Assembly (NCBI RefSeq): GCF_011420305.2
Contig: NZ_CP061769.1
Location: forward strand, 3,521,001-3,585,000
Direction: 5' to 3'
Source: Nocardioides ochotonae
Lineage (GTDB): Bacteria; Actinomycetota; Actinomycetes; Propionibacteriales; Nocardioidaceae
DNA: 64,000 nucleotides
The notes beneath the pieces were generated by a model that was not told the DNA's origin, did not search any database, and saw only the letters and a list, made by a program, of their open reading frames with translations. Made by a program: the position numbers and the translations under genes. Positions 1,394 through 26,786 of the stretch are shown here, in pieces. How positions within the stretch are numbered: the first letter of the stretch is position 1; the number at the start of each line of letters is the position of its first letter.

Positions 1394-2185
1394 TCAGACG
1401 CGGACGCGGGTGCCGAGCCCGGGGCGGTGGTCGCGGTGCATGGGGTGGGCGGCGCGGGTGGCGGCGACGAGGTCGCGCGAGAGCGTCGCGACGGCGAGGC
1501 CGGGCTCGGTGCCGAGGCGGGCGAGCGGTCGGCCCTCGGGGTCGTAGACCGCCGAGCCGCCGATGAACGACTCCCGGCCGCAGGTGCCGGTGAGCCCGGC
1601 GAAGACCACGAAGAACCCGTTGTCGAGGGCCCGAGCCGGGTAGTAGGTGTCGCGCCGGTGCTCCCCGCCGGGGAAGTACGCCGCGCTGTTGAGGTAGCCG
1701 AGCGCGCCGTCGTCGGCCGCGGCGCGGGCGTGCTCGGGGAAGCAGCCGTCGTAGCAGATCGACAGTCCCAGCTCCCAGCCGTCGACGGTGAGCGAGGCGC
1801 CGTGGTCGCCGGGCGTGAAGTGGTCGTTCTCGTAGCCCGAGAGGTGCTGCTTGTCGTACGCCGCCAGCGTGTGCCCGTCGGGGCGCACCACCACGCTGCT
1901 CAGCGTGCGCCGGGTCCCGCGCTGGAGGGCGGTGCCCAGCACCACCGTGGTGCTGGCGGCGGCCGCGGCGGCCCGCAGCCCGTCGAGCAGCGGGCCTGCG
2001 AGGTCGGCCTCGTCGGGCAGCGGCCCGGCGAAGACAGCCTCGTCGTAGCCGGTCAGGAACGCCTCCGGCAGCACCAGCAGGCGGGCACCGGCGGCGCCGG
2101 CCTGCGCGGTGAGCCGCGCGGCCGTGGCGGCGTTGGCCGGGAGGTCACCGGCGACGGCGACCTCCTGGCCCGCCGCGACGATCAC
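1394..2185 (-). CDS. Carbon-nitrogen hydrolase (nitrilase superfamily)
   Basis: A 263-residue amidohydrolase of the nitrilase/omega-amidase type, expected to be cytoplasmic and to cleave a small amide or carbamoyl substrate; the substrate cannot be told from sequence. The Glu-Lys-Cys triad is visible: E41 in LVLPEAF, K112 in YDKQH and C144 in SICYDGCFPE. The GTG start at 2185 overlaps the guaB3 stop (GTGA), so it is translationally coupled to guaB3. That coupling suggests a role next to purine metabolism, but the link is only positional. Length is normal for a single-domain nitrilase. Confidence 0.88.
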   Translation of the reverse strand: MIVAAGQEVAVAGDLPANAATAARLTAQAGAAGARLLVLPEAFLTGYDEAVFAGPLPDEADLAGPLLDGLRAAAAAASTTVVLGTALQRGTRRTLSSVVVRPDGHTLAAYDKQHLSGYENDHFTPGDHGASLTVDGWELGLSICYDGCFPEHARAAADDGALGYLNSAAYFPGGEHRRDTYYPARALDNGFFVVFAGLTGTCGRESFIGGSAVYDPEGRPLARLGTEPGLAVATLSRDLVAATRAAHPMHRDHRPGLGTRVRV

Positions 2186-3288
2186 CCGAGGACGACCTCG
2201 ACGCGCTGGAACTCCTTGAGCTCGGTGTAGCCGGTGGTGGCCATCGAGCGGCGCAGCGCACCGACGAGGTTCATGGTGCCGTCGGCGACCCGGGAGGGAC
2301 CGAACAGGATCTCCTCCATCGTGCCGACCGGCTCGAAGCCGACGCGCTGGCCGCGCGGCAGCTCGGCGTGGTGGGCCTCGGTGCCCCAGTGGAACCCGCG
2401 ACCGGGCGCGTCGGTGGCCCGCGCCAGCGGCGAGCCGACCATGACCGCGTCGGCGCCGCAGGCGATCGCCTTGGCGAGGTCGCCGGAGGTGCCGATCGAG
2501 CCGTCGGCGATGACGTGGACGTAGCGCCCGCCCGACTCGTCGAGGTAGTCGCGGCGGGCCGCGGCGACGTCGGCGACGGCGGAGGCCATCGGCACCGCGA
2601 TGCCGAGCACGGTGCGCGTCGTGTGGGCGGCGCCGCCGCCGAAGCCGACGAGCACGCCGGCTGCGCCCGTGCGCATCAGGTGCAGCGCGGCCTGGTGGGT
2701 CGCGCAGCCGCCGACGATGACCGGGACGTCGAGCTCGTAGATGAAGTCCTTGAGGTTCAGCGGCTCGGCCTGGCTGGAGACGTGCTCGGCGCTGACGGTG
2801 GTGCCGCGGATGACGAACATGTCGACGCCCGCGTCGACGACCGCCTTGGCGAACTCCTTGGTCCGCTGCGGCGAGAGCGAGCCGGCGACGGTGACCCCGG
2901 CCTCCCGGACCTCGCGCAGCCGCGCGGTGATCAGCTCGGCCTTGACCGGCTCCTGGTAGATCTCCTGCATGCGCCGCGTCGCCTCGGTGCCCTGCAGGCG
3001 CGAGACCTCCTCCAGCAGCGGCTCGGGGTCCTCGTAGCGGGTCCACAGCCCCTCGAGGTTGAGCACGCCGAGCCCGCCGTGGTGGCCGAAGGCGATCGCC
3101 GTGGCCGGCGACATCACCGAGTCCATGGGCGCGCCCAGCACCGGGATCTCGAAGCGGTAGGCGTCGATCTGCCAGGCGACGCTCACCTCCTCGGGGTCGC
3201 GGGTGCGGCGCGAGGGGACGATGGCGATGTCGTCGAAGGCGTAGGCGCGGCGGCCGCGCTTGGCACGGCCGATCTCGATCTCGGTCAC
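2182..3288 (-). CDS. guaB3: GuaB3 family IMP dehydrogenase-like protein
   Basis: A 368-residue TIM-barrel protein of the IMPDH/GMPR superfamily that lacks CBS domains, typical of the second guaB paralogue next to guaB in actinobacteria. Visible features include the N-terminal RAYAFDDIAIVPSRRT, LGAPMDSVMSPATA and the glycine-rich AAGVLVGFGGGAAHTTR. The GTG start at 3288 lies 34 nt downstream of the guaB stop. The family's reaction is not settled for most members; actinobacterial relatives have been studied as GMP reductase-like enzymes, so the dehydrogenase label is family-based. It is followed by the overlapping nitrilase-like gene. Confidence 0.92.
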   Translation of the reverse strand: MTEIEIGRAKRGRRAYAFDDIAIVPSRRTRDPEEVSVAWQIDAYRFEIPVLGAPMDSVMSPATAIAFGHHGGLGVLNLEGLWTRYEDPEPLLEEVSRLQGTEATRRMQEIYQEPVKAELITARLREVREAGVTVAGSLSPQRTKEFAKAVVDAGVDMFVIRGTTVSAEHVSSQAEPLNLKDFIYELDVPVIVGGCATHQAALHLMRTGAAGVLVGFGGGAAHTTRTVLGIAVPMASAVADVAAARRDYLDESGGRYVHVIADGSIGTSGDLAKAIACGADAVMVGSPLARATDAPGRGFHWGTEAHHAELPRGQRVGFEPVGTMEEILFGPSRVADGTMNLVGALRRSMATTGYTELKEFQRVEVVLG

Positions 3289-3322
3289 GGTGGATCCTGT
3301 CTGGCTCGAGGCTCGGAGTGGG

Positions 3323-4837
<1,515 letters not shown>

Positions 4838-4854: not shown

Positions 4855-5751
4855 TCACCCGAGCGGCGTGAGGTCGCGGACGGGCACCCGCACCATGATC
4901 ACGTCGGAGGTCATCCGGATCCGCCCCCGCAGCCCCGCGGCCAGCACCATGGGCAGCACCGCGCGGTTGTCCGAGCGGGTCGTGAGCACGATCGCCGAGG
5001 CGCCGTGGGTGCGGGCCAGCCGGGCGGCCTCGACCAGCAACCGGGTGCCGATGCCGCACCGCTGCCAGGCCGGGTCCACGCGCAGGGCCACCATCCGGGT
5101 GTCGGGCTCCTCCGGCGCTGCCGGCCCGAGGGTCGCGAGCCCCACCACCAGCCCGTCACGGACCGCGGAGACCGCGTCGGCCTGCACGACGTACCGGGGC
5201 CCGCGGCCGCCGGAGCGCCGCCCCGGGGCACCCTGCGCCCTCCCCCACGTCCCGGTGCGCTGGAGCACGTCGCTGACCAGCTCGGCCATCGACGCGGCCC
5301 GGGCGTGCTCGGTCGCGGTGAACGGCGCGGTACGCCGCAGCTGCACCTGGACCTCGCCGACCCGCACCTCCAGCAGGTCCCGGGGCCGGGTGTCCCCGCC
5401 GACCGGCTCCGCCTCGGCGTCGAAGAGCCGGGCCATCACCTCGGGGAACGACGCGGGCTCGGCCAGCACCGTCCGCGCCGCCTGCACGTAGCGGGTCGGC
5501 TGGTCCACCAGGGCGGCCTCCCCGCACGCCGAGCAGCTCAGCATCGCGCCGCCCGCCTCCTCGATCAGCGCGGCGACGTGGGCGGGGCTCCAGCCCTGCG
5601 GGGTGCGGAGCACCAGCTCGTCGGTGACGCTGCCGAGGTCGGGGAAGATCTGGAGGCTGAGGATGTTCACCTCGGCGTCCCCGCAGGCACGGGCGAGCGC
5701 GGCCAGCGCCCCGGGACGGTCGGGCAGGCGGGTCCGGACTCTCCACAGCAT
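4855..5751 (-). CDS. ACT domain-GNAT acetyltransferase fusion protein
   Basis: A 298-residue protein with two recognisable parts. Residues about 1-75 form an ACT-like ligand-binding domain (LPDRPGALAALARACGDAEVNI), normally an amino-acid sensor. The C-terminal half is a GNAT fold with the acetyl-CoA loop RVDPAWQRCGIGTRLL and a following helix. The middle contains CSACGEAAL, a small cysteine cluster. The layout suggests an acetyltransferase controlled by an amino acid; substrate is unknown. I chose the ATG at 5751 because it starts right at the ACT domain. A longer in-frame extension overlaps the promoter of the divergent glycosyltransferase and looks non-coding. Confidence 0.82.
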   Translation of the reverse strand: MLWRVRTRLPDRPGALAALARACGDAEVNILSLQIFPDLGSVTDELVLRTPQGWSPAHVAALIEEAGGAMLSCSACGEAALVDQPTRYVQAARTVLAEPASFPEVMARLFDAEAEPVGGDTRPRDLLEVRVGEVQVQLRRTAPFTATEHARAASMAELVSDVLQRTGTWGRAQGAPGRRSGGRGPRYVVQADAVSAVRDGLVVGLATLGPAAPEEPDTRMVALRVDPAWQRCGIGTRLLVEAARLARTHGASAIVLTTRSDNRAVLPMVLAAGLRGRIRMTSDVIMVRVPVRDLTPLG

Positions 5752-5863
5752 GGCGCCACCCTCACCCGGACGGGTTGCGCAACGGGGTCGCAGAGGTTTC
5801 GGGGAGGCAACGGCCCGCAGGGCGGACCTGCGCCCATGGGACGGACCTGCCAAGGTGTGGGTC

Positions 5864-7417
5864 GTGACCCAGCGGCTCGCCCAGACCACCACCGGGACCC
5901 GGCCCGGCCCCGTGCCCCGGGCGGCACAGGGCATCACCCGCGCGGTGGAGTCGCGGTGGACGGTCCCGCTGGCCGCGCTCGCGGCGTTCGTCCTGCGCCT
6001 GCCCGGCGTGGGCCGCCCGATCCGGCCCGACGAGGCCGGCTTCACCCTCGTCGCCCGCAGCTGGGCGCCCGAGGCCGACAGCATCTACGGCCACTACTTC
6101 GTGGACCGACCGCCCCTGCTGATCTCGGTCTTCAAGCTGTCCGACGCGATCGGCGGTCCCCTGTTCATCCGGGTGATCGGTGCGCTCGCGTGCACCGTCC
6201 TGGTGCTGCTGGCCGCGCGCACGGCCCGGGTCGTCGCCGGGGACGGCGCCGCGCCGTGGACGGCGATCTGCGTCGCCGCGATCACCTCCAGCCCGCTGAT
6301 CAACCTGGTCGCGGTCAAGGGCGAGCTGCTCGGCCTGCCCTTCGTGATGGCCGCCTGCCTGCTCGCCGTCGTGGCGCTGCGCGACCGCTCGGTGCCGTTG
6401 GCCGCCCTGGCCGGGACGAGCGCCATGGTCGCGGTCGGCTTCAAGCAGAGCCTGCTCGGCGGCCTCGTCTTCGCCGGCACCCTGCTGCTGGTCGCGCTGA
6501 TCACCCGCCGCATCGAGGGGCGGACGTTCCTGCGCCTCGCCGGCGCCGGTCTTGCCGGGGCGGCCGTGCCGGTCGCCGCGACGCTCGCCTGGGCAGCCGT
6601 GGCCGGCGTACGACCGAGCACCCTGTGGTACGCGATCTACGGCTTCCGCGCCGACGCGTCGGCCGTGCTGGCCTCGCACACCTCGAAGGCCGCCGACGAG
6701 CGCGCGGTCACCCTCGTGGTGGTCGCCCTGTGCACGGGGCTGCTGCTGGTGCTGGGCGGCTTCGTGGCCCACCTGCGCAGCGAGCTGCGCGAGGACGCCC
6801 CGCTGGCGGCGGCGGTCGCCGCCATGCTCGTCTACGACGCGTTCGGGATGGTGCTCGGCGGCAGCTTCTGGCCCGACTACCTCTTCGCCCTGGTGCCGTC
6901 CGCAGCCTTGGCCGCGGCGCTGCTGTCACGGCGTCGCTCGGGGCCCGGACGCGTGGTGCGCGCGGTCATCGTGCTCGCGGCGCTGTCCTGCGCGGTGTCG
7001 CTGTGCGTCTGGACGGTCCACAACCTCGCCGGCAACCAGGAGATCGACCAGGCGCGGACCGGCACCGCGATCGGCGACGTGGCCGAGCGGGGCGACACCC
7101 TGACGGTGTTCGGCGGCCGCGCGGACCTGCAGCTGAGCAGCGGGCTGGACTCGCCGTACGAGCACCTGTGGAGCCTGCCGATGCGCACCCTGGATCCCGA
7201 CCTCGCCGACCTGCGGGCGCTCGTCACCGGCCCCGACGCCCCGACCTGGCTGGTCGAGTGGTTCCCGTTCACCTCGTGGGACCTCGAGGCCGGCGAGCTG
7301 CTGCGCCGCGACGTCGAGGAGCGCTACGTCCCCGAGGAGATCACCTGCCGCGACGGCGAGGCGACGATCTGGCGCCGGCGCGACGTGGAGCGGCCGCCGG
7401 CGCAGCCGGACTGCTGA
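5864..7417 (+). CDS. Integral-membrane GT-C type glycosyltransferase
   Basis: A 517-residue polytopic membrane protein, probably transferring a sugar from a polyprenyl-phosphate donor on the outer face of the membrane (ArnT/PMT-like GT-C fold). The first loop carries an acidic RPDEAGFTLVARSW motif after the first membrane helix, the hallmark position of the catalytic acidic residue, and HYFVDRPPLL follows. About ten hydrophobic segments follow between residues 25 and 395, then a soluble C-terminal region. The GTG at 5864 is preceded by CAAGGT and 7 nt, a leaderless layout, so I prefer it to the GTG at 5855. It is a single gene, divergent from the ACT-GNAT gene. Acceptor unknown. Confidence 0.8.
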   Translation: MTQRLAQTTTGTRPGPVPRAAQGITRAVESRWTVPLAALAAFVLRLPGVGRPIRPDEAGFTLVARSWAPEADSIYGHYFVDRPPLLISVFKLSDAIGGPLFIRVIGALACTVLVLLAARTARVVAGDGAAPWTAICVAAITSSPLINLVAVKGELLGLPFVMAACLLAVVALRDRSVPLAALAGTSAMVAVGFKQSLLGGLVFAGTLLLVALITRRIEGRTFLRLAGAGLAGAAVPVAATLAWAAVAGVRPSTLWYAIYGFRADASAVLASHTSKAADERAVTLVVVALCTGLLLVLGGFVAHLRSELREDAPLAAAVAAMLVYDAFGMVLGGSFWPDYLFALVPSAALAAALLSRRRSGPGRVVRAVIVLAALSCAVSLCVWTVHNLAGNQEIDQARTGTAIGDVAERGDTLTVFGGRADLQLSSGLDSPYEHLWSLPMRTLDPDLADLRALVTGPDAPTWLVEWFPFTSWDLEAGELLRRDVEERYVPEEITCRDGEATIWRRRDVERPPAQPDC

Positions 7418-22159: not shown

Positions 22160-23461
22160 CTACTCATCGGGCGGGTGCGCGGTGACGAGCCGGGTGGTGC
22201 CGCGGTCCTTCACGAGGTGGAGCCCGTGGGGCGAGCGCCAGAGGTACGTCGCGGCGTCGGCCTTGTCGTAGGTCCAACCCGTGTGGGTCTTGGCCCGGTG
22301 ATGTCGCCGGCAGAGTGGGGCGAGGTTGCAGCTGCACGTCTCGCCACCGTCGCCGTGAGCGGTGACGTGGTCGGTGTCGCAGCGGCGGGCCGGTCTCTCA
22401 CACCACGGAAACGCGCACACCGGCTGGGCCAGACGGGTCTGCTCGACGAGTCGGTCGGGGATCGCGTAGGCGTCGGTGTGGTGATGGGCCTCGAGGTCGA
22501 TGACCGGCTTGATGATCACCTGCGCTTCGCCGGTGCACCAGCCGCGGACCTGGTCGGTCGACACGATGGACCGGGTCTCCTCGACGTGGGCGATGCCGGC
22601 CTCGTCGCGGCTGATCGCGGCGGCGGAGATGTGGACGTGGATGACGACCTGTCGGGGCTTGACCACCGAGGCGGCGCCGTCACCGGCTTCGGCCCGGAGG
22701 TCGAACGCGAGCTGGCGTCGCGCGAGCTCGCCGGCGGCCATCGAGCGGCGCACGTCGAGGGACTCGGTGCTGCCGAGCGCGGCGAGTTCGTCGGCGCCGT
22801 GCCGGATCGCGGTGTCGAGGTCGATCGCGTCGGCGAGGTCGAGGACACCCTCGACGTGGACGGTGCCGTCGTGGGTGGCTTCGCGCGTGTGGACGTCGAA
22901 GCGGCGGCCGTCGGCGGCAGCGAGGCGTTCCTTCTCCGCACCCTCCGGGTCGAAGGCGACGCGGGCCTGGTCGACCAGCCGCTCGATCCCGGCCCAGCTG
23001 ATCTTCCCGACGAAGCCGGCGAGCTGACGGTCCACGAACTCCGCCCCGTCGAACGGCAGGGCGGTCGTCAGCTGGGCGAGTCGCCGAGCCTTCCACAGCG
23101 GCACCTTGCCGGCGCGGACCAGCCTCCAGGTGCGTTTGAGCCGGTGCGCGAGCTCCAGGGCGTCACCGACCAGGGAACGGGCGGAGTCGGTGGACATGCC
23201 GAGCGCGGCGCCGAACTCCATCGGAGCGAACTCCGCCACCAGCGGTGCCCCCTCCCCTGCCAGCGGGACGGCCACCTCCCCGAACACCAGCCCGGTCGTC
23301 GGCGCCACCTCGGCGACCGACTCCTCCGGGTGCATCGACGCCCACACCAGAGCCGCCTCCAGGACGTCGATCTCCGCCCGCTGGGCCACGGCCCGGCGGC
23401 GCTGCGCGAACGCCAGCACGGCGGCTGGGGAGTCGCAGTCGGGGAGCTCGGGGTCGGCCAT
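22160..23461 (-). CDS. DUF222 / HNH endonuclease protein (13E12-type), copy 1
   Basis: A 433-residue member of the DUF222-HNH (REP13E12) family. The N-terminal three-quarters is DUF222 (EFGAALGMSTDSARSLVGDA, VPLWKARRLAQLT). The C-terminus is a Cys-rich HNH motif: CAFPWCERPARRCDTDHV, then CNLAPLCRRHHRAKTH. The ATG at 23461 is chosen because a perfect SOS-type palindrome lies 13 nt upstream and the paralogue at 50142-51443 has exactly the same length and start. By eye the two are nearly identical over most of their length. The molecular function is unproven; relatives are repetitive in mycobacterial genomes and some are LexA-controlled. Confidence 0.9.
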   Translation of the reverse strand: MADPELPDCDSPAAVLAFAQRRRAVAQRAEIDVLEAALVWASMHPEESVAEVAPTTGLVFGEVAVPLAGEGAPLVAEFAPMEFGAALGMSTDSARSLVGDALELAHRLKRTWRLVRAGKVPLWKARRLAQLTTALPFDGAEFVDRQLAGFVGKISWAGIERLVDQARVAFDPEGAEKERLAAADGRRFDVHTREATHDGTVHVEGVLDLADAIDLDTAIRHGADELAALGSTESLDVRRSMAAGELARRQLAFDLRAEAGDGAASVVKPRQVVIHVHISAAAISRDEAGIAHVEETRSIVSTDQVRGWCTGEAQVIIKPVIDLEAHHHTDAYAIPDRLVEQTRLAQPVCAFPWCERPARRCDTDHVTAHGDGGETCSCNLAPLCRRHHRAKTHTGWTYDKADAATYLWRSPHGLHLVKDRGTTRLVTAHPPDE

Positions 23462-23473
23462 GCCCCATCCTAC

Positions 23474-23489
23474 TCGAACGCACGTTCGA
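23474..23489. promoter_or_regulatory. LexA/SOS-type box upstream of DUF222-HNH copy 1
   Basis: TCGAACGCACGTTCGA, a TCGAACG/CGTTCGA inverted repeat matching the actinobacterial LexA site TCGAAC-N4-GTTCGA. It ends 13 nt from the start codon. The same 16 bases at the same spacing occur before copy 2. Confidence 0.82.
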
Positions 23490-23518
23490 CGACAAGAGTC
23501 TTTCCACCACGGTCTCGA

Positions 23519-23815
23519 TGTCATGCCTCAAGACATCGGTGACGGTTCTGTGTCAGGACATCGGTGACACAACTGGGGTGCTTGGTGGTGACACTTCTGG
23601 CTCTCTGGTGCGGTGCCTGCCGCCAATGAGCCTGTCGATCCTCGTGTCCGTCTCGCGATCGTCCAGTGGCCTGAGGATGCGCCACGAGGCGCGTGACCAC
23701 GTTCTGCGAAGAGCATCAGATCTCGCGTAAGACGTTCTACGCGAGCCGTGCCCGGGCGCGTGAGGACGGCGCAGCTGCGGCACTCGAGCCCCGCAGCAGC
23801 AGAACTGTCATGTAA
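23519..23815 (+). pseudogene. Decayed IS481-type transposase 5' remnant
   Basis: Two fragments of one protein are readable on the plus strand. NEPVDPRVRLAIVQWPEDAP is in the frame that ends at a TGA (23694-23696). VTTFCEEHQISRKTFYASRA, continuing to a stop at 23813-23815, is in another frame starting at 23693. Restoring a single G near 23693 joins them into one N-terminal helix-turn-helix region like that of IS481/IS3-class transposases. The catalytic DDE domain is absent. Upstream, GACATCGGTGAC occurs twice (23532-23543 and 23557-23568), which may be the remains of an element end. It marks a past insertion beside the DUF222 gene. Confidence 0.68.
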
Positions 23816-23903: not shown

Positions 23904-23941
23904 GGCCGCCGCTCGGACCGGTCCAGGTCCGAGCGGCGGCC
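23904..23941. terminator. Strong terminator hairpin of the amidase gene
   Basis: A perfect 16-bp stem (outer arm GGCCGCCGCTCGGACC) with a 6-nt loop GGTCCA, beginning 22 nt past the minus-strand amidase stop at 23964. Confidence 0.75.
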
Positions 23942-23963: not shown

Positions 23964-26786
23964 TCAGCGGCGCACCGTGACCGTGGCCGTGCCGCGTGCC
24001 CGGGTGAAGCCCTGGTCCGGGGTGAGGACGACCCGCACCACGCGGGTGCCGGGACGCTTCGACGGCAGGCGCAGGGTCGCCCGGCCGGCCTTCACGGGCA
24101 GCGCCTTCGCGACGACCTTGCCGCCGTAGGTGACCCGCAGGGTGCCGGTCGGCTTCGCGCCGGACGCGGAGAGCTGCACCCGGAGCACCGGACGGGCGGA
24201 CGGTCCCACCTTCGCCGGCGCCGCCACAGTGAGGCGGGTGCGGGCGGCGGCGACCTTGGCGGTGCGGTGCGAGACGGCGGTGCCGGCGGCGTGACCGGCG
24301 CGGGACGCGGTCACCCGGACCGCGAGGCGACGTCCGGCGTCGGCAGGGCGCACCCGGTAGGAGCGGGCGGTGGCGCCGGGGATCGGCGTACCGGCGCGCA
24401 GCCACTCATAGGAGAACCGGGCACCGGCGACGTCCCAGGCCCCGGGGGTCGCCGTGAGCAGCTTGCCGACGGCGGGCTTGCCCGCGATCCGCGGGTCCGT
24501 GGTGGCGACCGGAGCCGCCCCCTCGACGGCGAGGTCCGCCGAGCCGAGGTCGGTGGCGCTGGTCTCGGCCAGCTCGGTGGAGACCTGCTCGACCGCGGAG
24601 GCGAGCACCTCGGTCGCGCCGGCGCCGACGGCGGTGAAGCTCGCCTGCGCCAGGACCACGGTGCCCTCGCTCGCCGGCGAGCCGCCGAGCTCGGTGTGCA
24701 CGACGTGCAGGGTGCCGTCGTCCGCCGCGGCGTACGTCGCCCCGGTGTTGTCGGTGCCGGCGCTGCCCTCGACGTAGGCCAGGACCTCGGGGTCGAAGTC
24801 GAGCGCCAGGTCGTAGGCGTAGAGGTCGCTGGCCGCGTCGGCGGTGACGGTCACGGTGACCGTCTCCCCCACCTCGATCTCGTCGGTCGACGTGGTGACC
24901 CTCCAACCGGGCTCGCCGACGGACGTGGTGACGGGCTCGGCCGGCGCCGCGTCCTCCAGCGGGCCGTAGAGCGCGGGAGCGACCCGGTGCTGGGTGGCCT
25001 GCTCGTAGGCGTAGGCCATGGCGAGCAGCTCGCCCTCGCTGAAGTCGCGACCCAGGAGCTCGAGGTTGACGCCGGCGCCGGTGATCGAGGCGTCGGCCTC
25101 GATCGCCTGCCCCATCGGCACCGTCACCGCGGGCAGCCCGGTGTTGGGGCTCAGGCGCATGTTGGTGCTGTGCGTGCCGTACGGCGTGCCGCTGGGGTAG
25201 ATCAGCGCGTCCAGGTCCTCGGCGTCGAGCGCGCCGGTCACCAGCGTGCCGCCGTTGTCGAGCACCTCGGTGTGGCGCTCCATCCACGCGTCGTACTGCT
25301 CCTCGGTCACCGCGTTGCGGCTCACGAAGGTGCTGCGCCGCGAGGGCACGAACCGGCCCGAGGCGATGATGTCGTCGAGCGTGCGGATGGTGACGTCGTC
25401 GCTGAGGTGGTTCGCCACGTAGTCGGCGAGGTCGTGCTTGAACTCGTTGGTGCTGCCGCTGCCCTCGCTCAGCACCGGGCCGATGCCGTCGATGGTGATC
25501 TCCTCGACGACCGCGCCCTGCGCCTCCAGGTCGGCGACCGCCTGGGTGAACAGCCGCTTGGCCGCCGCGTTGGTCGGCACCATCGAGGCCAGGTAGCCCA
25601 GCCGCTTGCCGGCGAGCGCGTCGGCGTCCAGGCCCGCGGTGTAGGACTCGGGGACCTTGCCGGCCTGCGTGGCGGTCACGGGGTCGGCGGGGTCGATGCC
25701 GACGACGGCGTCGAGGGCGATCGCGGCGTCGGAGACCGTGCGGGCCATCGGGCCGCCGGTGTCCTGGCTGAGCGCGAGCGGCACGATCCCGTCGCGGCTG
25801 GCCAGCCCGACGGTCGGGCGCACGCCGACCAGCTGGTTGTAGCTCGACGGCACCCGGATCGAGCCGCCGGTGTCGGTGCCGAAGCCGATCGCGCCGAGGT
25901 TGGCCGCGATCGAGGCCCCGGTGCCGCCGCTGGAGCCGCCGGCGGTGCGCGCGAGGTTGTAGGGGCTGGCGACGAGCTTGGAGGACCCGACCGGCTGCCC
26001 GGCGCTGAACTCCGAGGCGAAGCCGTAGGCGAACTCGTCCAGGCTGGCCTTCCCGAGCAGGACCGCGCCGGCCTCGCGCAGGCCCTTGACCATGAACGCG
26101 TCGTCCTCGGTGAGGTTGTCCTCCCAGCACGAGCAGCCGGCCGTGGTGGCCATGTCGTGGGTGTCGTAGTTGTCCTTGAGCAGCACCGGGAGGCCGTCGA
26201 GCATGCTGCGCGGCCCGCCGTTCGCGGCCCGGGCGGCGTCGCTGGCCGCGGCCGCCTCGAGCGCCGCCTTGTTGGTGGCGATGATCGAGTTCAGCGCCCG
26301 TCCGGGGGCCGCGGGGTCGGTCTCCTTCGCGTCGTACGCCGCGATCCGCGCGAGGTAGGCCCGGGTGATCTCCACCGAGGTGGTGACGCCGGCGTTCATC
26401 GCGGCCTGCATGTCCAGGGCGCTCGCCTCGACGAGCTCGAACGCGCCGTCGTCGTACACCATCCGCTGGGCGAGGTCCGCGACGTCGCTGAGCTCCACGA
26501 CGCCGTCGGCGTCGAGGTCGCCCGCGGCCACGGCGGCCCAGCCGGCGTCGCCGTCGGCGGTGCCGAGCGCGGCGACCAGCAGGTCGACGTCCTCACGGGT
26601 CACCTGCCTGTCCCCGGTCAGGTCCGCCTCGGTCCAGTACGGCGCGAGGTAGACGGCCCCCGCGGGAGCCGGGTCGATCGTGGGCGCGGCCTGGGCCGGT
26701 GCGCCGAGGGCGCCGCCGGCGAGCACGCTCGCCCCGATCACCGCCGCCGCGGCCAGCGAGGTGCGGGCCCTGGTCTGCTTCTTCAC
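23964..26786 (-). CDS. Secreted multidomain amidase with dockerin-like and cohesin-like modules
   Basis: A 940-residue exported protein. Residues 1-33 are a signal peptide (KKQTRARTS, then a hydrophobic run, then APAQAAP). Residues 53-111 hold two calcium-loop repeats like a type I dockerin: D55, T57, D59, D66 and D90, D92, D94, D101. Residues about 120-610 are an amidase-signature domain with K204 (VLLKDNYDT), S285 (GGSSGGTG) and nucleophile S309 (GTDTGGSIR) at canonical spacing. Residues about 628-745 resemble a cohesin (DLYAYDLALDFDPEVLAYV). Residues 763-846 and 850-940 are two Ig-like domains. It would hydrolyse an amide outside the cell. It lies in an accessory insert between acpS and nnrDE. 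Confidence 0.87.
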   Translation of the reverse strand: MKKQTRARTSLAAAAVIGASVLAGGALGAPAQAAPTIDPAPAGAVYLAPYWTEADLTGDRQVTREDVDLLVAALGTADGDAGWAAVAAGDLDADGVVELSDVADLAQRMVYDDGAFELVEASALDMQAAMNAGVTTSVEITRAYLARIAAYDAKETDPAAPGRALNSIIATNKAALEAAAASDAARAANGGPRSMLDGLPVLLKDNYDTHDMATTAGCSCWEDNLTEDDAFMVKGLREAGAVLLGKASLDEFAYGFASEFSAGQPVGSSKLVASPYNLARTAGGSSGGTGASIAANLGAIGFGTDTGGSIRVPSSYNQLVGVRPTVGLASRDGIVPLALSQDTGGPMARTVSDAAIALDAVVGIDPADPVTATQAGKVPESYTAGLDADALAGKRLGYLASMVPTNAAAKRLFTQAVADLEAQGAVVEEITIDGIGPVLSEGSGSTNEFKHDLADYVANHLSDDVTIRTLDDIIASGRFVPSRRSTFVSRNAVTEEQYDAWMERHTEVLDNGGTLVTGALDAEDLDALIYPSGTPYGTHSTNMRLSPNTGLPAVTVPMGQAIEADASITGAGVNLELLGRDFSEGELLAMAYAYEQATQHRVAPALYGPLEDAAPAEPVTTSVGEPGWRVTTSTDEIEVGETVTVTVTADAASDLYAYDLALDFDPEVLAYVEGSAGTDNTGATYAAADDGTLHVVHTELGGSPASEGTVVLAQASFTAVGAGATEVLASAVEQVSTELAETSATDLGSADLAVEGAAPVATTDPRIAGKPAVGKLLTATPGAWDVAGARFSYEWLRAGTPIPGATARSYRVRPADAGRRLAVRVTASRAGHAAGTAVSHRTAKVAAARTRLTVAAPAKVGPSARPVLRVQLSASGAKPTGTLRVTYGGKVVAKALPVKAGRATLRLPSKRPGTRVVRVVLTPDQGFTRARGTATVTVRR

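Follow-up and report, generated by a model that had tools for sequence, protein, structure and literature searches.

A secreted Nocardioides amidase with a dockerin and a cohesin on one chain, the probable fused form of a two-gene actinobacterial system

The window, a 64,000-nucleotide stretch of the Nocardioides ochotonae chromosome, carries a gene on its minus strand (23964..26786; all features below lie on this strand) for a secreted protein of 940 amino acids, organised as dockerin-amidase-cohesin-Ig-Ig according to its open reading frame and Pfam matches. The frame begins with a GTG start codon downstream of a GGAAGGA ribosome-binding site. A Sec-type signal peptide (residues 1-33, 26688..26786) was recognised in the sequence by its basic start and the hydrophobic stretch that follows, is likely cut between A-Q-A and A, and recurs in relatives with a complete 5' end. 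The dockerin (residues 47-112, 26451..26648) comprises two EF-hand loops with helices, and the loops, assigned from sequence and conservation, read DLTGDRQVTRED (residues 55-66, 26589..26624) and DLDADGVVELSD (residues 90-101, 26484..26519). Next come an amidase-signature domain of the peptide-amidase type (residues 116-607, 24966..26441) and a linker (residues 608-625, 24912..24965), whose position is occupied in Nocardioidaceae with split genes by a stop codon and the cohesin gene's signal peptide. The cohesin (residues 626-745, 24552..24911) is followed by two Ig-like repeats. The first (residues 757-845, 24252..24518) is defined by beta strands in the model, and the Pfam search of the window protein gave no match for it; the second (residues 850-938, 23973..24239) is Big_3_5-like in Pfam and in the model, with a match at 856-938 (E 4.3e-5) that lies below the Pfam cut-off. 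Inspection of the C-terminal sequence revealed no LxxTG motif with a hydrophobic segment and basic tail. Approximately 22 bases past the stop codon, a 16-bp perfect inverted repeat (23904..23941) would form, by sequence alone, a terminator-like hairpin without a T run. An HNH-endonuclease-like gene (22160-23524), which reads CDTDHVTAHGDGG...CRRHHRAKTH and had no Pfam match at E 0.001, sits between the amidase gene and an NAD(P)H-hydrate gene.

The Pfam Amidase model matched residues 139-588 (E 7.1e-81). K204, S285, and S309 were invariant in 45 sequences and aligned with the peptide-amidase motifs LLLKDN, CGSS, and GSI. In a structure search with the full chain, which returned amidases only and in which missing cohesin rows are uninformative, the domain was closest to the Stenotrophomonas maltophilia peptide amidase PAM (1m22; Z 47.7, with 38% identity over 467 residues). 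The domain has the amidase fold and the Lys-cisSer-Ser triad of the amidase signature family, and it shares both the domain and these residues with PAM, and C-terminal peptide amides are the first candidate substrates. PAM in its crystallised form lacks dockerin, cohesin, and Ig modules, all of which the window enzyme has.

Dockerin_1 (PF00404) covered residues 55-108 of the window protein at 11.5 bits, against a cut-off of 22.9. The model matched 36 of 40 family members at E <= 0.01 over a homologous region of 105 amino acids and exceeded the cut-off in 16 of 25 relatives in whole-genome searches; through these homologues the module of the window protein is identified as a dockerin. The ligands are D55, T57, D59, and D66 in loop 1 and D90, D92, D94, and D101 in loop 2, and Asp occupies each of positions 1, 5, and 12, in both loops, in no fewer than 78 of 81 sequences. 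In the full-chain model, this region (pLDDT mostly 86-96, helices at 64-72, 83-89, and 99-106) has the structure of a dockerin, namely two 12-residue calcium loops with Asp ligands and a helix after each.

The Pfam Cohesin model (PF00963) matched residues 633-731 in the whole protein (46.4 bits against a cut-off of 24.1, E 5.7e-12), and the module alone scored 51.5 bits (E 1.6e-13). The high-confidence fold is that of a homologous cohesin from Microbacterium sp. 2FI (L074; pLDDT about 97), the window module having been folded within the full chain at lower confidence; the L074 model was built from cohesin rows only and is silent on docking. Its best PDB matches, 2vo8, 2jh2, and 2w1n (Z 17.0-17.2, rmsd 1.9-2.2 A over 128-131 residues), are non-cellulosomal cohesins of Clostridium perfringens, and it also resembles the adhesin Ig-like domain PrgB 8beg (Z 12.1). 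Judged by profile score and by this homologue, the window module is a true cohesin. A preliminary description of the gene had listed a signal peptide, two dockerin-like calcium loops, a complete Lys-Ser-Ser amidase site, a cohesin-like domain near residues 628-745, and two Ig-like repeats. All residues it named proved correct, and its modules were borne out, the dockerin by the two EF-hand loops and homologues that pass Dockerin_1, the amidase site by invariance and motif alignment, and the cohesin by its Pfam score and the Z 17 matches of its homologue. The Pfam check it had proposed succeeded for Amidase and for Cohesin, the latter over its cut-off, whereas Dockerin_1 stayed below its cut-off in the window protein itself.

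The only cohesin over the cut-off in the window genome (4.26 Mb, one contig) is that of the window protein. In the Pfam search of the complete genome no dockerin exceeded the cut-off, and the two weaker dockerin matches, the only ones, correspond to the halves of the window dockerin. In the tree the genome falls among Nocardioides records, which suggests this genus. The earlier observation that nothing else in the window carries either module holds genome-wide, with one cohesin and one recognisable dockerin. Among 25 relatives, the Pfam cohesin model gave a single match in 22 (20 of them above the cut-off) and two in none; the other three had no Pfam match, and their cohesin was detected by a more specific profile. 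Dockerins over the cut-off never exceeded one per genome in these relatives and were located at the cohesin-amidase locus. Neither a multi-cohesin scaffoldin nor a set of many dockerins was found in the window genome and the 25 relatives, and the label of a cellulosome is inapplicable.

Co-occurrence was counted in evenly drawn genomes, the list of the best 80 loci from a scan of bacterial genomes being biased toward loci with both modules; negative genomes were covered by a fast first-look scan that scores the best candidates only. Across 400 Microbacteriaceae genomes, the dockerin-amidase was present in 30 and the cohesin in 29, all within those 30, and in the sole exception (G617) the amidase lies 157 bases from the contig start. 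These counts span 16 genera in one family, and the Fisher p of 3e-43 overstates independence as the genomes are related. In 395 genomes of the class, the cohesin accompanied the full dockerin region in nine of nine cases and occurred alone in one other genome. The remaining weak profile matches in the class cover only the part after the dockerin and represent amidases without this module; genomes with such amidases had no cohesin match, except G029, which has the pair elsewhere. The enzyme was found in 14 of 198 Nocardioidaceae genomes, each time with a cohesin at the same locus (14/14). One genome (G021) has a cohesin-Ig protein without a dockerin-amidase, which counts against a tethering pair. 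Since gene adjacency favours co-inheritance, co-occurrence by itself is no proof of contact.

Most actinobacteria with the enzyme have the modules on two adjacent genes, which encode a monocohesin protein and a dockerin-amidase. Outside Nocardioides, at loci with enough upstream sequence, the separate cohesin gene usually lies directly upstream of the dockerin-amidase gene; the two overlap by ATGA in 25 of 63 cases, and the median gap is 35 bases under a heuristic choice of start codons. The flanking genes differ from genus to genus, so that the cohesin/dockerin-amidase pair is the unit. The separate cohesin protein consists of a signal peptide, one cohesin, a Pro/Ser/Thr-rich stretch, an LAxTG-type motif, a hydrophobic segment, and a basic tail, and 84 of 86 such proteins end in LxxTG and a hydrophobic segment. 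The NCBIfam LAVTG and LAXTG sorting models match 27 and 22 of 45 cohesin proteins, respectively; LAXTG is the signal of class E sortases in actinobacteria (PMC5148588). The two-gene form occurs in many related soil and plant bacteria, whose cohesin is probably anchored at the cell surface and probably keeps the enzyme there. In Nocardioidaceae, the split cohesin gene is located directly downstream and encodes its own signal peptide and Ig-like repeats, with no sorting signal. In two cohesin proteins (L149 and L154, from genomes G690 and G741) the part that follows the cohesin is longer and ends in a membrane segment, with no LxxTG; the amidases of these two loci make up the most divergent branch on the amidase tree. 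Three Cellulomonas genomes were reported in 2013 to contain neither cohesins nor dockerins (PMC3544764); other Cellulomonas species (L033, L036, and L049) carry the pair.

The 14 Nocardioidaceae genomes with the enzyme divide into eight with fused and six with split genes. Fusion in the window order was found in 13 proteins and requires at least two changes on the amidase tree, that is, two fusions or a fusion and a fission. In Nocardioides sp. Root1257, a split pair lies between glmS and an NAD(P)H-hydrate gene, and the fused window gene shares this chromosomal neighbourhood. Fusion in the reverse order was found twice. The L074 protein of Microbacterium sp. 2FI reads signal peptide-cohesin-dockerin-amidase, without an anchor, whereas the second case (L165; G888:C1:999200-1004700, ORF 2076-4697) encodes in a single frame a signal peptide, a cohesin, a linker, LSATG, a membrane segment, a second signal-like segment, a dockerin, and the amidase; cuts by sortase and signal peptidase could free both partners from this one polyprotein. 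A further candidate, L038, was rejected as a frameshift: its apparent linker is read out of frame, and an intact signal peptide comes after it. When two given partners are fused more than once, this is classically taken to mean that they work together, and it would suggest joint function here. In comparisons of the window gene with two close fused relatives, the dockerin had a dN/dS of 0.28-0.29, the cohesin of 0.31-0.33, and the amidase of 0.20-0.26; another group of fused genes, in two comparisons, gave 0.32-0.36 for the dockerin and 0.38-0.47 for the cohesin, and the amidase ranged over 0.05-0.26 across the fused comparisons. Both calcium loops are kept in 12 of the 13 fused proteins, the exception being L008 (N. 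litoris), which has lost the second loop and counts against a tethering pair. The dN/dS values and the kept loops together indicate that both modules are maintained after fusion, less strictly than the catalytic domain.

We consider it likely that the window protein is the fused form of a dedicated two-component actinobacterial cohesin-dockerin system, which in relatives would hold an amidase at the cell surface. The dockerin and the cohesin probably recognise each other, since there is at most one of each per genome, their co-occurrence is nearly perfect, they have been fused repeatedly and in both orders, and both are under purifying selection. The separate genes and the sorting signal of the cohesin in most relatives make surface tethering look like the older role. 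In the mechanism we propose, the N-terminal dockerin of the amidase, with its two calcium EF-hands, would be the specific partner of the one adjacent cohesin. Both proteins would be secreted in the split relatives, and for the separate small cohesin protein of Micrococcales the LAxTG-type signal predicts attachment to the wall by a sortase. The wall cohesin of split relatives would then capture the dockerin-amidase 1:1 in a calcium-dependent manner and so keep the peptide-amidase-like enzyme at the surface of the cell. In Nocardioidaceae, Ig-like repeats stand in place of the sorting signal, and in the window lineage both genes are joined. The fused sequence would permit cis closure, small domain-swapped assemblies, and head-to-tail chains alike. 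We favour cis closure, because the local concentration should be high within one chain: the cohesin would most likely dock its own dockerin in a closed form with the 18-residue linker, or alternatively that of a second copy in small domain-swapped assemblies. Neither the full-chain model (pTM 0.60, few cohesin rows) nor that of the L074 cohesin-dockerin fusion (pTM 0.62, no dockerin rows) gives a confident arrangement of the modules. The basic Ig tail might perhaps provide surface retention, which is a guess. A broader picture, which we put forward tentatively and with some doubt, is that a private one-lock-one-key pair of actinobacteria, unrelated to cellulose, displays one amidase on the cell wall, and that its repeated fusion, in both orders and in some lineages, has yielded a self-docking enzyme switched by calcium among open, closed, and chained states.

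The preliminary description had proposed self-association as the simplest idea and regarded the arrangement as allowing head-to-tail assembly or calcium-controlled intramolecular closure. This proposal stands insofar as the modules are real and probably pair, but a polymer purpose is not supported, as most relatives have adjacent genes with a wall-sorted cohesin and one cohesin or one dockerin per protein, which are unable to polymerise. It is accordingly unlikely that each dockerin binds the cohesin of the next molecule to give calcium-dependent amidase chains or rings at the surface, even though the genome has no cohesin or recognisable dockerin other than the two joined on this chain, and both are under purifying selection in fused genes; local concentration should in addition favour closure unless geometry forbids it. 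We regard as improbable the reading that the EF-hands simply stabilise the amidase with calcium and the cohesin is an Ig-like adhesion module, with no mutual binding. The sub-threshold Dockerin_1 score and the similarity to the PrgB domain would fit it, but in about 1000 genomes one module is almost never present without the other, distant amidase homologues that lack the dockerin have no such cohesin close by, and the top cohesin matches are bona fide cohesins (Z 17). Least credible is that the covalent link has replaced docking in fused lineages and left the dockerin a relic heading for loss, as the missing loop 2 of L008 and the stronger constraint on the amidase might suggest, since 12 of 13 fused proteins retain both loops and the dockerin dN/dS is clearly below 1.

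Lists of non-cellulosomal cohesins and dockerins exist for many genomes, but for most of these modules neither partner nor purpose is known. In the present case genomics alone leaves little ambiguity about the partner, and the cargo is a single enzyme. The cohesins of C. perfringens NagJ/GH84C and the family 33 sialidase share the fold (Z 17, rmsd about 2 A) and likewise occur on secreted enzymes with Ig/FN3-like neighbours. Several different enzymes carry cohesins or dockerins in C. perfringens, in contrast to the present case, in which no genome yielded more than one cohesin, beside one dockerin enzyme, an amidase. The Archaeoglobus fulgidus cohesin 2xdh also matches the fold (Z 14.5). ANME archaea have proteins with one dockerin and several cohesins (PMC9012536), so the earlier statement that the two modules are normally on different proteins is too strict. 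These archaeal systems are similarly unlinked to cellulose breakdown; they differ in organism and in cargo (ABC-transporter binding proteins and S-layer domains), and we found no sortase signal or amidase in their descriptions. As in cellulosome anchoring by SLH or sortase scaffoldins, the wall-anchored cohesin of the split relatives is predicted to hold a dockerin enzyme, but with one cohesin, one enzyme (the amidase), and no scaffoldin repeats. The folds are already known; among the open-access papers listed we found no description of the dedicated pair, that is, a sortase-anchored monocohesin with a dockerin-amidase partner, or of its fusion, nor any link between a dockerin and a peptide amidase, although an earlier mention is possible. 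With natural split, fused, and reverse-fused versions at hand, cohesin-dockerin binding, display at the surface, and the consequences of covalent fusion are open to direct tests, and the pair may serve as a small orthogonal docking pair in protein engineering.

Three further loci were recorded. The orphan cohesin-Ig-Ig gene of the Nocardioidaceae genome without a dockerin-amidase (L116; G021:C7:263500-274500, ORF 4977-6128, minus strand) directly adjoins a gene for a secreted protein whose sequence resembles an M28-type peptidase. In Demequina sediminis (L013, 5818-6267), the cohesin frame stops inside the domain, reflecting an assembly frameshift or a decaying gene, and the neighbouring dockerin-amidase is intact. 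A 3.6 kb contig of Stenotrophomonas maltophilia P13 (L064) carries a Microbacterium-like dockerin-amidase and is probably assembly contamination.
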